The notes below the pieces were generated by a model that was not told the DNA's origin, searched no databases, and saw only the letters and a list, made by a program, of their open reading frames with translations. From a bacterium (GTDB lineage Bacteria > Actinomycetota > Acidimicrobiia > Spongiisociales > ZC4RG35): a stretch of DNA of 64,000 nucleotides. The translations under genes and the position numbers were made by a program. Location of the stretch: positions 1 through 64,000 of the forward strand of contig JAPPFC010000036.1 in the NCBI GenBank assembly GCA_028824015.1, written 5' to 3'. Positions 1 through 4,791 of the stretch are shown one piece after another (within the stretch, counting starts at the first letter, position 1; every line of letters begins with the position of its first letter).

Positions 1-277
1 AAGCCACATCACCCGTAATCGCATTCAACGACCGAATCTGAACAGCCTCACCCGGCCCCACTTCAACGACACCCAGCGAACCATCGCCCAGATGGTCCAT
101 CATGGGCATCTCCTCATCCATGGGTTCATCCGGGGCTGCAGTGGTCGGCGCCGCAGTGGCGGTTGGCTCTTCGGTCTCATCGTCGCCGCAAGCCGAAAGG
201 ACCAGCGCTGCGCAAGAGAGCACGACCAGGAACTTGAGCAACCCCTTAGCCCTCGTTGTTGTTGGTAGGTGGAGCAT
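1..277 (-). CDS. ABC transporter substrate-binding lipoprotein (partial, runs off the left edge)
   Basis: Reverse-strand translation from ATG at 275-277: MLHLPTTTRAKGLLKFLVVLSCAALVLSACGDDETEEPTATAAPTTAAPDEP...LGVVEVGPGEAVQIRSLNAITGDVA; lipobox LSAC and substrate-binding-protein-like N-terminus. Absent from the ORF track because it is truncated. Confidence 0.7.
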   Translation of the reverse strand, partial: MLHLPTTTRAKGLLKFLVVLSCAALVLSACGDDETEEPTATAAPTTAAPDEPMDEEMPMMDHLGDGSLGVVEVGPGEAVQIRSLNAITGDVA

Positions 278-366
278 GATTCTCTCCTTTCATCCGAACA
301 GCGAAAATTCTTGACAGTTCACTCTTTTAATGAACGCTGAAGATAATACCCCCCTTCTCAACGAAA

Positions 367-392
367 GAGAATTATATACCAAAGTGGCGAAA
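367..392 (+). repeat. Left terminal inverted repeat GAGAATTATATACCAAAGTGGCGAAA
   Basis: Reverse complement of 3842-3867 except at position 2 (A/G). Confidence 0.9.
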
Positions 393-423
393 CCGGGATT
401 TGACATTGTAGACTCGCCTTGCA

Positions 424-762
424 ATGGGCGAGATGACGATAGGTCAAGAGTTCGCCATGCGATGGCTATACCAGAACCGTCCGGTGCGGTCACCTCGTGG
501 TCAGCAACCTGAAGTGGACCCGTTTGAATTCGGCAACGAAGTCGCAGCGGCTGTTGATGCTTATGCCGACAAGAAGCGAGCGGAACTAGATCTGGTCTTA
601 CGGCGTGTGATCTGTGCCGCGTTGGATGACGAGGGACGTCCCAGCGATGTGAGAGTCAGCGCCAAGGAGTTACTTGAATCGGAGTGCATGACTTTTATTG
701 CTAGGAAGGTCACGGGAGGCTTTGATCGTCCTCGTCGTTTCCCCACCAATTTGCATGCATAA
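424..762 (+). CDS. Hypothetical protein (transposon passenger)
   Basis: 112-aa ORF immediately inside the left TIR and upstream of the transposase; no recognised domain. Confidence 0.5.
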   Translation: MGEMTIGQEFAMRWLYQNRPVRSPRGQQPEVDPFEFGNEVAAAVDAYADKKRAELDLVLRRVICAALDDEGRPSDVRVSAKELLESECMTFIARKVTGGFDRPRRFPTNLHA

Positions 763-800
763 CCCCTAGTTGACCTGCGGTTTTGTCACAGGCCGCCACT

Positions 801-1772
801 ATGCTTCCATATATGGAAGCTCGGATCAAAGCCCCCGGAAAGGCACACCGCACAGGCATCAGCCTGATCGACCTATTCGCCAAGTTCCCCGACGACGACA
901 CCGCCGAAGCGTGGTTCCGCGGGTTGCGGTGGCCGAACGGCATCACCTGCCCCCAGTGCGGGAGCGACAGGGTGCAGGACGGATGCGCTCACAAGACCAT
1001 GCCCTTCCGCTGTCGGGACTGCAACAAGAAGTTCTCGACCAAGACCGGCAGTGTGATGCAATCATCGAAGCTGGGGTATCGGGTTTGGGCGATAGCGATT
1101 TATCTGTTCAACACGAGCATCAAAGGCACGTCGTCGATGAAGCTCCACCGAGACCTCGGGATCACTCAGAAGTCGGCATGGCATCTGGCGCATCGGATTC
1201 GGGAGGCTTGGGGAGACCAGCACGAGGTGTTCTCCGGGCCGGTGGAGGTCGATGAGACGTACATCGGGGGCAAGGAGAAGAACAAGCACGCTCACAAGAA
1301 AGCCAACCTCGGCCGCGGCACAGTTGGTAAGACCGCCGTGGTTGGGGCGAAGGACCGGGCTACGAACTGGGTGTCGGCTCGGGTGGTGGACCGCACCGAC
1401 AAGTTGACGCTTCAGGGGTTTGCCCTGTCACACATGGACGGTGGGGCGGAGGTGTTCACCGACGACGCCAAAGCCTATCAGGGATTGCCGAACCACCAGA
1501 CCGTCAAACACTCCATCAGCGAATACGTGAACGGGGAGGCGCACACGAACGGCGTCGAGTCGTTCTGGGCGATGCTGAAACGCGGGTATCACGGCACCTA
1601 CCACCGTCTATCCCGCAAGCACCTCCAACGGTATGTGAACGAGTTCGCCGGGCGTCACAACATGCGAGATTTGGACACGATCCATCAGATGAGCTGGATG
1701 GTCGTGGGGATGCTGGGCAAGCGACTCCGCTACGAAGACCTCAAAGCGGGCGGGAGAACCCACGCAACCTAG
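801..1772 (+). CDS. IS1595-family (ISXO2-like) transposase
   Basis: N-terminal zinc ribbon CPQCGSDRV...CRDCNKKF; DDE-type core VEVDETYIGG / FTDDAKAY / NGVESFWAMLKRGYHGTYH. Confidence 0.95.
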   Translation: MLPYMEARIKAPGKAHRTGISLIDLFAKFPDDDTAEAWFRGLRWPNGITCPQCGSDRVQDGCAHKTMPFRCRDCNKKFSTKTGSVMQSSKLGYRVWAIAIYLFNTSIKGTSSMKLHRDLGITQKSAWHLAHRIREAWGDQHEVFSGPVEVDETYIGGKEKNKHAHKKANLGRGTVGKTAVVGAKDRATNWVSARVVDRTDKLTLQGFALSHMDGGAEVFTDDAKAYQGLPNHQTVKHSISEYVNGEAHTNGVESFWAMLKRGYHGTYHRLSRKHLQRYVNEFAGRHNMRDLDTIHQMSWMVVGMLGKRLRYEDLKAGGRTHAT

Positions 1773-2026
1773 AGTTCGTAGACGACTACCCGTTTCTGTC
1801 TTCGCCGACGCCGCCGTCTAACACGTTTACGTCCTGATCGGTGGTCTGCTAACGCGGCTTTTTGCAAGTCTGCGTCGGTGAGACTGGACGGGTTGCCTTG
1901 GAGTTTCTTGTGAATGTGATCCGCTATCAGTCTGTTGACTGCCGTGGTGGGATGGGTGACTCGCTCGTGTCGATGGGTGATCTTGACCTCGACAAGCGGC
2001 CGGCTATCATACGAGCCGTTCGGCAT
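1769..2026 (-). CDS. Small basic hypothetical protein
   Basis: 85-aa ORF with Arg-rich C-terminus, convergent with and overlapping the transposase stop; weak support. Confidence 0.3.
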   Translation of the reverse strand: MPNGSYDSRPLVEVKITHRHERVTHPTTAVNRLIADHIHKKLQGNPSSLTDADLQKAALADHRSGRKRVRRRRRRRQKRVVVYEL

Positions 2027-2074
2027 CGTGTTCTCCTTGGAGTGATGTTTTTGGTTGTCACGGTGCTGAGCGCA

Positions 2075-2105
2075 GTTCGGGTCTCGGGATAAGGGAGACC
2101 CGAAC
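2075..2105 (-). terminator. Hairpin downstream of the SLH gene
   Basis: GTTCGGGTCTC-9 nt-GAGACCCGAAC, 11-bp perfect stem; no clear T tract. Confidence 0.5.
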
Positions 2106-2155
2106 CGTCAGCTATCCACTCCCTGAGTTTAGGCCCTTCACTCGGCGGTACTGGT

Positions 2156-2923
2156 TCAGCAGTTTCCTAGCTGTTCTTTCACGAAGTCGTACTCTGCTTG
2201 GTCCATGGTGGCCTGGTAGCGGTACTTGACGTCCACGTGCATGTGTAGATACTCGCACCAGCCGGGATAGTTCGTGTTCTGCGGAGAAGCCGGATCGTCG
2301 CGGTTCCACCACTCCAACGGGTCGAAGTAAGCCTTGGACTCGTCCACCGACCCCACGACGGGCCGCGTGTTGTACGCATCCAACGTGAACATCCTGTTAC
2401 GCACGCCGGAGCACCACGCCTCATAGGGAGACACCACAAAATCGACTGTCGTGTGTGTTCCGTAGCTCAGATAGCCCACGGTGTCGCCCCGGCGCCAGAA
2501 CATGGTGGGCGGCAACTTCTCGAAGTAGGCACCCCCGGAGATCCATCCGTCGCAGTTCGCCGGTGCTATGTCGATGTGCTCCATTTTCGCCAGTGACGTT
2601 TGGGCGGTTTCGCCGGTGGTTGGAGCGTATTGCCCTGGGCGAAGGGTGTAGGTCGTGGAGGTAGTGGTCGGGGATGTTTGCTCTTGCAGGTGGTAGCGGT
2701 AGAGGAACGTGACGATCTCGGCGCGGGTGACCTTCTCGTCGGGGCAGAAGCGGTCGTCGGCGCATCCCTGGGTGATGCCCTGTTCGACTGCCCAGGCGAT
2801 GGCGTCCTCGGCGTAGTGACCGGCAGGTACGTCCGTAAACCCGGTGGTGGATCTGGCCAGCACCACCCCACCGGTCAGCCCCAACACGAACGCCAGAACG
2901 ATAAACAGATGCCTTGTACTCAC
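2156..2923 (-). CDS. SLH-domain secreted/surface protein with HNH (DUF1524)-like C-terminal region
   Basis: Signal peptide; SLH motif FTDVPAGHYAEDAIAWAVEQGITQGCADDRFCPDEKVTRAEIVTFLYRY; C-terminal ...DPLEWWNRDDPASPQNTNYPGWCEYLHMHVDVKYRYQATMDQAEYDFVKEQLGNC. Confidence 0.75.
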   Translation of the reverse strand: MSTRHLFIVLAFVLGLTGGVVLARSTTGFTDVPAGHYAEDAIAWAVEQGITQGCADDRFCPDEKVTRAEIVTFLYRYHLQEQTSPTTTSTTYTLRPGQYAPTTGETAQTSLAKMEHIDIAPANCDGWISGGAYFEKLPPTMFWRRGDTVGYLSYGTHTTVDFVVSPYEAWCSGVRNRMFTLDAYNTRPVVGSVDESKAYFDPLEWWNRDDPASPQNTNYPGWCEYLHMHVDVKYRYQATMDQAEYDFVKEQLGNC

Positions 2924-2927
2924 AATG

Positions 2928-3323
2928 TCACCGCGTGAAGGTCTTGAAGGATATAAACGGTTTGGAATATCCAGTGAGAGTCACCACATTGCGTCCGGGT
3001 TTCAGATTGACTCTCTCGTTGATGCGGTCAACTTGGAACCCTTCTTCGTCATAGAACCGTACCTCGAAGTACACACCGTCCTCGGTCCCGCCCCAGTCAA
3101 GTTCCAAACGGCATGACACCTCCCAATGATCACCGGCGAAGTCGTCATCTATCACCTTGCACCGCTCCTCGAAAAAGTCCGGTGCCGATGTTGTGGAGGT
3201 AGTGCCTCTGGTGGTGGTCGGGAAGTCCGTTTCGACATTGGATAGGTCTGCGCTGAGTTCTTCTAAGGCTGTGCATCCCGCCACTAGCAGCAGAAGCAAG
3301 GCTATGGTGATGGTTCTGGTCAT
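2928..3323 (-). CDS. Lipoprotein (transposon passenger)
   Basis: MTRTITIALLLLLVAGCTALEELS lipobox; Thr-rich linker; start placed at MTRTI (approximate). Confidence 0.6.
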   Translation of the reverse strand: MTRTITIALLLLLVAGCTALEELSADLSNVETDFPTTTRGTTSTTSAPDFFEERCKVIDDDFAGDHWEVSCRLELDWGGTEDGVYFEVRFYDEEGFQVDRINERVNLKPGRNVVTLTGYSKPFISFKTFTR

Positions 3324-3417
3324 GGGGCTGTCCTTTCCACACCCAACTCTACCCGTCGCTCTGCTACCATGGTTGGTTATGACCACTACATTCCCTCTTT
3401 GCTAAGCTGGACCGGTC

Positions 3418-3660
3418 ATGACTTCTCGCATGAAGCCACCTGCTGACGTCACCCGCCTTCCGCAGGACATCTACGACCATCTCAACCGCATCGAAGGCAA
3501 GCTCGACTCGGGGCTGGATCGTCTCGAAGGCAAGATGAATGCTGGGTTCGCCCGCTTGGACACGAGGATGGATCGCTTGGACACGAGGATGGATCGTCTA
3601 GAAGACAAAGTGGACCGTCTTCAGGACGGCATCAACGCCCTACTCAACGGACAACAATGA
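3418..3660 (+). CDS. Coiled-coil small protein
   Basis: 80 aa with heptads RLDTRMD-RLDTRMD-RLEDKVD-RLQDGIN; 21-bp DNA tandem duplication. Confidence 0.6.
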   Translation: MTSRMKPPADVTRLPQDIYDHLNRIEGKLDSGLDRLEGKMNAGFARLDTRMDRLDTRMDRLEDKVDRLQDGINALLNGQQ

Positions 3661-3818
3661 CCACCACCGCCAAACCCGAACGGCGCCAGAGGGGCCGCCC
3701 AGTCGAGAAGCCCCTCCCCCCGCCTATCCCAGACACACCCGAGAACATCGCCCGGGCCGTGATAACCACCCCTCCGAAGCGGCGTAAGGACTGGAAGTAC
3801 CTCAAAACCCAGACTTAG
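3657..3818 (+). CDS. 53-aa small protein MTTTAKPERRQRGRPVEKPLPPPIPDTPENIARAVITTPPKRRKDWKYLKTQT
   Basis: ATGA overlap with the preceding coiled-coil gene; below the ORF-track length cut-off. Confidence 0.55.
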   Translation: MTTTAKPERRQRGRPVEKPLPPPIPDTPENIARAVITTPPKRRKDWKYLKTQT

Positions 3819-3841
3819 CTAGGCGAGCGCACCCCTCCTAC

Positions 3842-3867
3842 TTTCGCCACTTTGGTATATAATTCCC
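3842..3867 (-). repeat. Right terminal inverted repeat (rc GGGAATTATATACCAAAGTGGCGAAA)
   Basis: Matches the left TIR 25/26, inward-facing. Confidence 0.9.
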
Positions 3868-3945
3868 CAACGAAATGTAAACGAATGGGGCCTTATTCTT
3901 AACACTCTTCCCTACCGGGCGCCCCCATCAGGGGTGTGGAGACTG

Positions 3946-4791
3946 CTAGCGGCCCTTGGGATGCCAGACGGTTTTGATCTCGGTGAAGGCCGAGATCCTG
4001 TAGAGGTTGGCGTCGGATCCCTCCCAGCGCCCGGTGCGTTTCAGGTTGTGGGACGCCGCCTCCTCAAGATCCGAGATGCCCTCGGGGTGAACTCCCGAAA
4101 AGTCTACGCCGTTGACGTCCATGTGGCCGGCCAGCCAGGGCGCCAGTTCCTCGGGAAAACCGGTGAGGATGTTCACCACCCCCGCCGGGACATCGGCCGT
4201 AGCCAGCGCCTCCGCCAGGGTGATGGCGATCATCGGCTGGGCGGGGGAGGCCACCACCACGGCTGTGTTCCCGCTCGAGACGACGGGAGCCAGCCCCGCC
4301 ACAAGCCCCCGAAGCACCGGTGCGGAGGGAGCGATCACCCCCACCACCCCCACCGGTTCGGGGACGGAGATGTTGAAGAACGGCCCGGCCACCGGGTTCA
4401 TGTTCCCGACCACCTGCATGTATTTGTCGCACCAGCCCGCATACCAGATCAGGAGGTCGATGGCCTCCCCGACTTCCCCCCGGGCATCCTCGGCCGAGGA
4501 GCCTCCCAACTCCAGTTGGGCGGCAAAAGTCGCAGCCCGGTCCTCGACCATCTCGGCGATCCGATAGAGGACCTGGCCCCGGTTGTATCCGGATCGCCCC
4601 TTCCATCCCGCCAGGGCGGCGCGGGCGGCGCGCACCGCCATCCGCAGATCCTTGCGGGAAGCCCGGGAGATGTGAACCACCTCCGAGCCGTCATCGGAGA
4701 CAACAGGGAAGGTGCGGCCCGACTCGGACCGTGGAAAGCCCCCATCGATGTAGAGCTTGTAGGTCTTTCGAACGGCCAGCCGCTCACCCAT
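3946..4791 (-). CDS. ALDH-superfamily protein lacking the C-terminal catalytic half (ALDH16 second-domain-like)
   Basis: MGERLAVRKTYKLYIDGGFPRSESGRTFPVVSDDG...EPVGVVGVIAPSAPVLRG...TEIKTVWHPKGR; no catalytic Cys motif; ATGA overlap with the upstream ALDH. Confidence 0.85.
   Translation of the reverse strand: MGERLAVRKTYKLYIDGGFPRSESGRTFPVVSDDGSEVVHISRASRKDLRMAVRAARAALAGWKGRSGYNRGQVLYRIAEMVEDRAATFAAQLELGGSSAEDARGEVGEAIDLLIWYAGWCDKYMQVVGNMNPVAGPFFNISVPEPVGVVGVIAPSAPVLRGLVAGLAPVVSSGNTAVVVASPAQPMIAITLAEALATADVPAGVVNILTGFPEELAPWLAGHMDVNGVDFSGVHPEGISDLEEAASHNLKRTGRWEGSDANLYRISAFTEIKTVWHPKGR

Follow-up and report, generated by a model that had tools for sequence, protein, structure and literature searches.

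The 3,501-bp IS1595-family element at positions 367 to 3867 of the window, which is the whole 64,000-nucleotide stretch of DNA analyzed here, is in our reading a passenger-carrying transposon (tIS) from a family that joins a backbone to swappable cargo. We put the probability of this reading at about 0.85. The window opens a 286-kb contig, one of 60 in a 2.9-Mb genome, and relatives of this genome, along with their bin names, indicate that it is probably sponge associated. Passenger genes not needed for transposition, encoding an SLH protein, a lipoprotein, and small ORFs, lie between the element's ends, as in a tIS. The features are as follows.

359-366, no strand: left 8-bp target duplication CAACGAAA, read from the sequence; one copy in the empty sites of three congeners (G001, G004, and G003)
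367-392, plus strand: left terminal inverted repeat (TIR), with tip GA where GG is near-invariant elsewhere in the family
424-762, plus strand: ORF of 112 aa that precedes the transposase gene and has a counterpart in element L025 only
783-1772, plus strand: IS1595-family transposase by domain matches; likely true start ATG at 801 or 813
1769-2026, minus strand: 85-aa ORF with a good ribosome-binding site, AAGGAG
2156-2923, minus strand: exported SLH protein with a signal-peptide-like N-terminus, one SLH domain, and an HNH-like-related C-terminal domain
2928-3323, minus strand: 131-aa lipoprotein with lipobox LVAGC
3418-3660, plus strand: 80-aa coiled-coil protein, overlapping the TPE gene start (ATGA)
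3657-3818, plus strand: TPE, a 53-aa protein with an AT-hook-like RGRP tail and a DTPENIARA helix
3842-3867, minus strand: right TIR, read from the sequence
3868-3875, no strand: right 8-bp target duplication CAACGAAA, read from the sequence

Boundaries, transposase, and insertion site

Evidence for the boundaries is direct. The TIRs are 26 bp long and identical at 25 of 26 positions, and both 8-bp copies of CAACGAAA are perfect, exactly as a preliminary description of this DNA had placed them. The 24-bp TIR core occurs at two places within the window, both of them element ends, where 0 would be expected by chance. A DNA search of the whole genome with the TIR likewise returned the two ends alone, which disposes of the concern that it might be a widespread unrelated repeat. 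A composite or nested element was rejected, as inner inverted ends are absent from 300-3950, and the element has no Rfam match that would indicate an RNA feature.

Assignment to IS1595, proposed in that description, is borne out by the 8-bp duplication and by both transposase domains, DDE_Tnp_IS1595 (PF12762; E 2.8e-38) and the N-terminal Zn_ribbon_IS1595 (PF12760; 33.9 bits, cut-off 25.4), together with an NCBIfam match to 'IS1595 family transposase' (NF033547) at 181.5 bits, above its cut-off of 75. Residues D157, D227, E259, and K266 are kept in at least 54 of 55 relatives. Overlapping the probable transposase start is a palindrome, GCTTCCATATATGGAAGC / CTTCCATATATGGAAG (core TTCCATATATGGAA), found in the window (803-820) and in elements L025 (632-645) and L026 (5010-5025) and preceded in all three by a TATGCT/TATACT-like box. 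It may be the operator of a leaderless transcript; a family-wide operator was rejected, the palindrome being confined to these three elements. The window's own genome holds a second related IS1595 transposase (L002; G000:C8:177363-179475), after which a DNA methyltransferase frame begins and is cut off by the contig end.

The insertion site can be reconstructed from relatives. With the element and one copy of the duplication taken out, the flanks form a continuous alignment with three congeneric genomes, at 87% identity to G001:C167, 82% to G004:C138, and 81% to G003:C36; G001 has TAACGAAATGTAAACGA where the window has CAACGAAATGTAAACGA. These sister genomes are without the element's genes at the locus, and the site is clean in all three, the outcome that the preliminary description had asked to see. 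The uninterrupted empty sites imply that the insertion postdates the split from the congeners and, given the divergence from them, it is recent in a relative sense only. A neighboring ABC-transporter lipoprotein gene had been placed about 90 bp away; the element does lie upstream of it, at a measured distance of ~80 bp between the duplication and the start codon (276-278, minus strand). The G003 orthologue of this gene (L122:1967-3784) encodes a substrate-binding-like lipoprotein by its sequence.

Whether the element can still move is a separate question. It had been called recent and possibly active, with intact ends and an intact transposase. Its being younger than the congener split stands, as does the transposase, in its open frame and conserved residues, but the left end does not: its tip reads GAG against GGG at the right end. 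Of 114 family ends, 112 have G at position 2, and A is found there solely in the window's left end. The unique GA, where related ends begin with GG, means that "both ends intact" is not warranted and that "intact ends, possibly active" is too strong, and with a single copy in the genome, present mobility is a proposal only. The contrary reading, a fossil insertion now immobile through a left-tip change from GG to GA, draws on that same unique A and on the single copy, but the transposase frame is open with its conserved residues kept, the target duplication is perfect, and GA is perhaps tolerated or a base error in a metagenome assembly. We rate immobility as a serious contender that falls somewhat short of even odds; the GA tip itself could be either a true mutation or an assembly error.

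Cargo of the window element

The cargo is as first described: an SLH protein (its domain confirmed by PF00395, E 1.9e-9), a lipoprotein, a coiled-coil protein, and small ORFs. The SLH gene, which starts with GTG, lies 4 bp downstream of the lipoprotein gene, and the two form a probable operon. No homologue of the 131-aa lipoprotein or of the 112-aa ORF was found among 198 genomes of the class, and a search for homologues of the 85-aa ORF gave none. The 112-aa ORF shares 76% amino acid identity with its L025 counterpart, at a dN/dS of ~0.11. A defence function of the cargo was considered and dropped, as a PADLOC match is absent.

The C-terminal 108 residues of the SLH protein resemble an exported protein of the related genome G005 (47% identity) and two of G038; the domain is without match in Pfam, NCBIfam, and PDB. 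These relatives carry a signature, V[DE]HVV...N(R)SK, which we take to be that of HNH/DUF1524 nucleases. Its H and N are present in L114, L115, and L116; the window protein reads VDFVV and VDESK. With F and D in place of the signature H and N, a nuclease function is unlikely, and we infer that the activity has been lost. A single-sequence structure model of the protein was too poor for use (pLDDT 37). Another SLH gene may be mobile as well: L117:1099-1692 in G003 and L114:291-671 in G005, both close to the end of a contig, share a nearly identical SLH gene stretch (93.5% over 418 bp).

Possibly a single insertion picked up host chromosomal genes by chance, and this cargo is unselected and now decaying. 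SLH proteins are abundant on the chromosomes of relatives, the HNH-like domain is without its signature residues, the lipoprotein and 85-aa ORF are without homologues, and the cargo is known from one copy. On the other hand, every cargo frame is open, the lipoprotein and 85-aa ORF have ribosome-binding sites, and exported-type cargo recurs in family members L030 (CsgG/LpoB-like) and L034 (a weak TbpB-like match). We consider such a capture conceivable but on balance doubtful.

A family with exchangeable cargo

A transposase scan of 84,980 species genomes gave 80 loci, each of which was searched for inverted ends and duplications, and from these and the window emerged 57 clear elements, the window's included. 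The duplication is a perfect 8 bp in 52 of them, the median length is 2.8 kb, and the hosts, mostly metagenome-assembled genomes, span at least 10 phyla. The end consensus is GGGAATTATATAC, and AT content is 76% in the target duplications, which follow the pattern WWWNNWWW, and 40% in the flanks. A bare IS of ~1.1 kb is not among the 57. At 1.5 kb, L045 is the shortest; its transposase is nearly that of L027 in the same genome, and the element looks like a shortened form.

DNA methyltransferases, detected by profile or Pfam, occur in 28 of 55 non-redundant elements. The combinations vary: a fused methyltransferase-Mrr protein (N6_N4_Mtase plus Mrr_cat) in L025 and L026, a methyltransferase with a BglII-type nuclease in L067, an EcoRI-type methylase with a GmrSD_N/HNH protein in L083, an N6_Mtase with a specificity subunit in L055, and a D12 methyltransferase in L087. 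Cargo other than restriction-modification (RM) genes includes, besides that of L030 and L034, a proteasome-family protein (L061) or unassigned proteins. Two elements, L039:4881-7754 and L040:4881-7955, share 93-95% DNA identity and come from two bins obtained in one sponge project, one assigned to Gemmatimonadota and the other to Gammaproteobacteria; their flanks are unlike (70% versus 59% GC), and the methylase gene differs in its middle. The pattern suggests transfer across phyla with a swapped recognition segment.

Mapping RM versus other cargo onto the transposase tree takes 14 changes, against a mean of 18.7 when shuffled, which argues that the type of cargo changes often. On this tree the window element groups with L025 as its sister (98/86), and L026 joins the two (100/99). 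L025:213-3120 (RHO1_bin_22) and L026:4687-7610 (OM1 bin76) share with the window its ends, a transposase of 82-83% identity, and TPE, and L025 also has the 112-aa ORF; they differ in carrying as cargo a DNA methyltransferase to which an Mrr-type nuclease domain is attached. The preliminary description held that the window cargo is not of the resistance or methylase kind, which is right for the window, where no methylase remnant is present, yet its two closest sisters carry methylase-nuclease genes. Since both closest relatives are RM elements, the window lineage probably replaced methylase-nuclease cargo with exported proteins, a direction read from a tree in which three elements are decisive.

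The TPE gene

An iterated profile built from the last ORF of the window element, with the core TPExxA+A, matched 37 times in the 165 kb of element sequence and once in the 353 kb of flanks (p ~1e-17). The gene is inside 37 of 57 elements, at most 60 bp from the right end in 24 of the 37. Comparisons among the copies in the window, L025, and L026 give a dN/dS of 0.19-0.27, marking TPE as a selected gene. The predicted structure (pLDDT 80) consists of short helices with a flexible tail and has no counterpart in the PDB. The AT-hook-like RGRP stands at the start of many TPE proteins and is missing from many others; as the ends are AT-rich, binding of TPE to them is a natural guess. We give about even odds to TPE being a conserved backbone gene that would encode an accessory protein of the element, and its lack in 20 of 57 elements means that it is not essential for all.

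Outside the element collection, a search of the 198 class genomes found TPE in three relatives, G005, G058, and G051, along with one 16-position match that looks like chance. It adjoins an IS1595 transposase at G005:C7 and G058:C38, and at G051:C68 (Acidimicrobiia bin SB0661_bin_37, of the same order as the window genome) it lies 1.5 kb from transposase matches. A TPE-like gene in G058 (L131; G058:C20:1055-1177) has as neighbors a coiled-coil ORF and GGTGTTGGTTTCATACGTCAATTATA repeated three times in tandem, and an IS1595 transposase is absent from the 2.7 kb examined there, at a contig end. A tblastn search for TPE on plasmids gave none.

TPE might instead be a frequent passenger, for example part of an RM, toxin-antitoxin, or coiled-coil pair, a reading that fits its lack in those 20 elements, its other location or strand in some, its place directly after a coiled-coil gene in the window and L093, and the one copy outside an IS1595 element beside such a gene; but TPE occurs irrespective of cargo type (RM 21/28, other 16/27; p 0.26), lies close to the right end in most carriers, and is confined in the class genomes, bar the chance-like match, to those with such transposases, and we therefore think this reading the less probable, if a possible, one.

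Relation to known elements and proposed model

The IS1595 family comprises seven subgroups with 8-bp duplications and usually one transposase gene (PMC8101967). Its tIS members MTnSag1 and tISCpe8 carry resistance genes and favor AT-rich targets (PMC5704250). They resemble the window element in their IS1595 transposase, ~25-bp ends, 8-bp duplications, AT-rich targets, and passenger gene; they differ in size (1.7-2.0 kb), in carrying lincosamide resistance, and in residing in Firmicutes, with only the resistance gene and transposase described (PMC5704250). An element on Roseomonas marmotae plasmid p1318-1 (L137:3915-6518) is closer to the window's in its GGGGATTATG-type ends, duplication TATCTTTA, and passengers after the transposase, and differs in its PIN-domain cargo, in TPE not being detected, and in its host, a cultured isolate.

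By its end consensus, the family presumably belongs to the ISNwi1 subgroup, with which it shares transposase domains, 8-bp duplications, and GGGAATTAT-type ends. Members of that subgroup have the end consensus ggnnatTAT, an 8-bp duplication, a length of ~1.1 kb, and one gene, whereas the elements described here measure 1.5-4.4 kb, carry cargo, and often have TPE. A search for open papers on such IS1595 elements in sponges gave none; the founding paper, Siguier et al. 2009, which lay outside our search, may already note methylase passengers. Passenger-bearing IS1595 elements are thus already known, and what is new here is the exported-protein cargo, TPE, and the family context.

In the model that we favor, the transposase would cut or copy the element at its AT-rich inverted ends, a chemistry taken from the family; insertion is into AT-rich targets with an 8-bp duplication, as the anatomy and the empty site show. 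The backbone would run from left end through transposase, swappable cargo, and TPE gene to right end. In the window lineage, ancestral methylase-nuclease cargo probably gave way to the lipoprotein-SLH pair and small ORFs, which would probably alter the host cell surface. TPE would most likely act as an accessory protein, perhaps binding the AT-rich ends through its AT-hook-like tail. A broader proposal, which we hold to be rather unlikely, is that an unnamed, widespread IS1595 branch is a modular vehicle, in which TPE would aid the transposase at AT-rich ends while the middle would alternate between exported surface proteins and compact RM systems, so that both spread across the phyla of one sponge.

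Resistance genes are what passenger IS1595 elements have chiefly been known for. Should this family pattern hold, transposons of less than 4.5 kb would carry RM genes and exported proteins from one phylum to another within sponge microbiomes, and the conserved small TPE gene would offer a candidate accessory transposition protein that can be tested.
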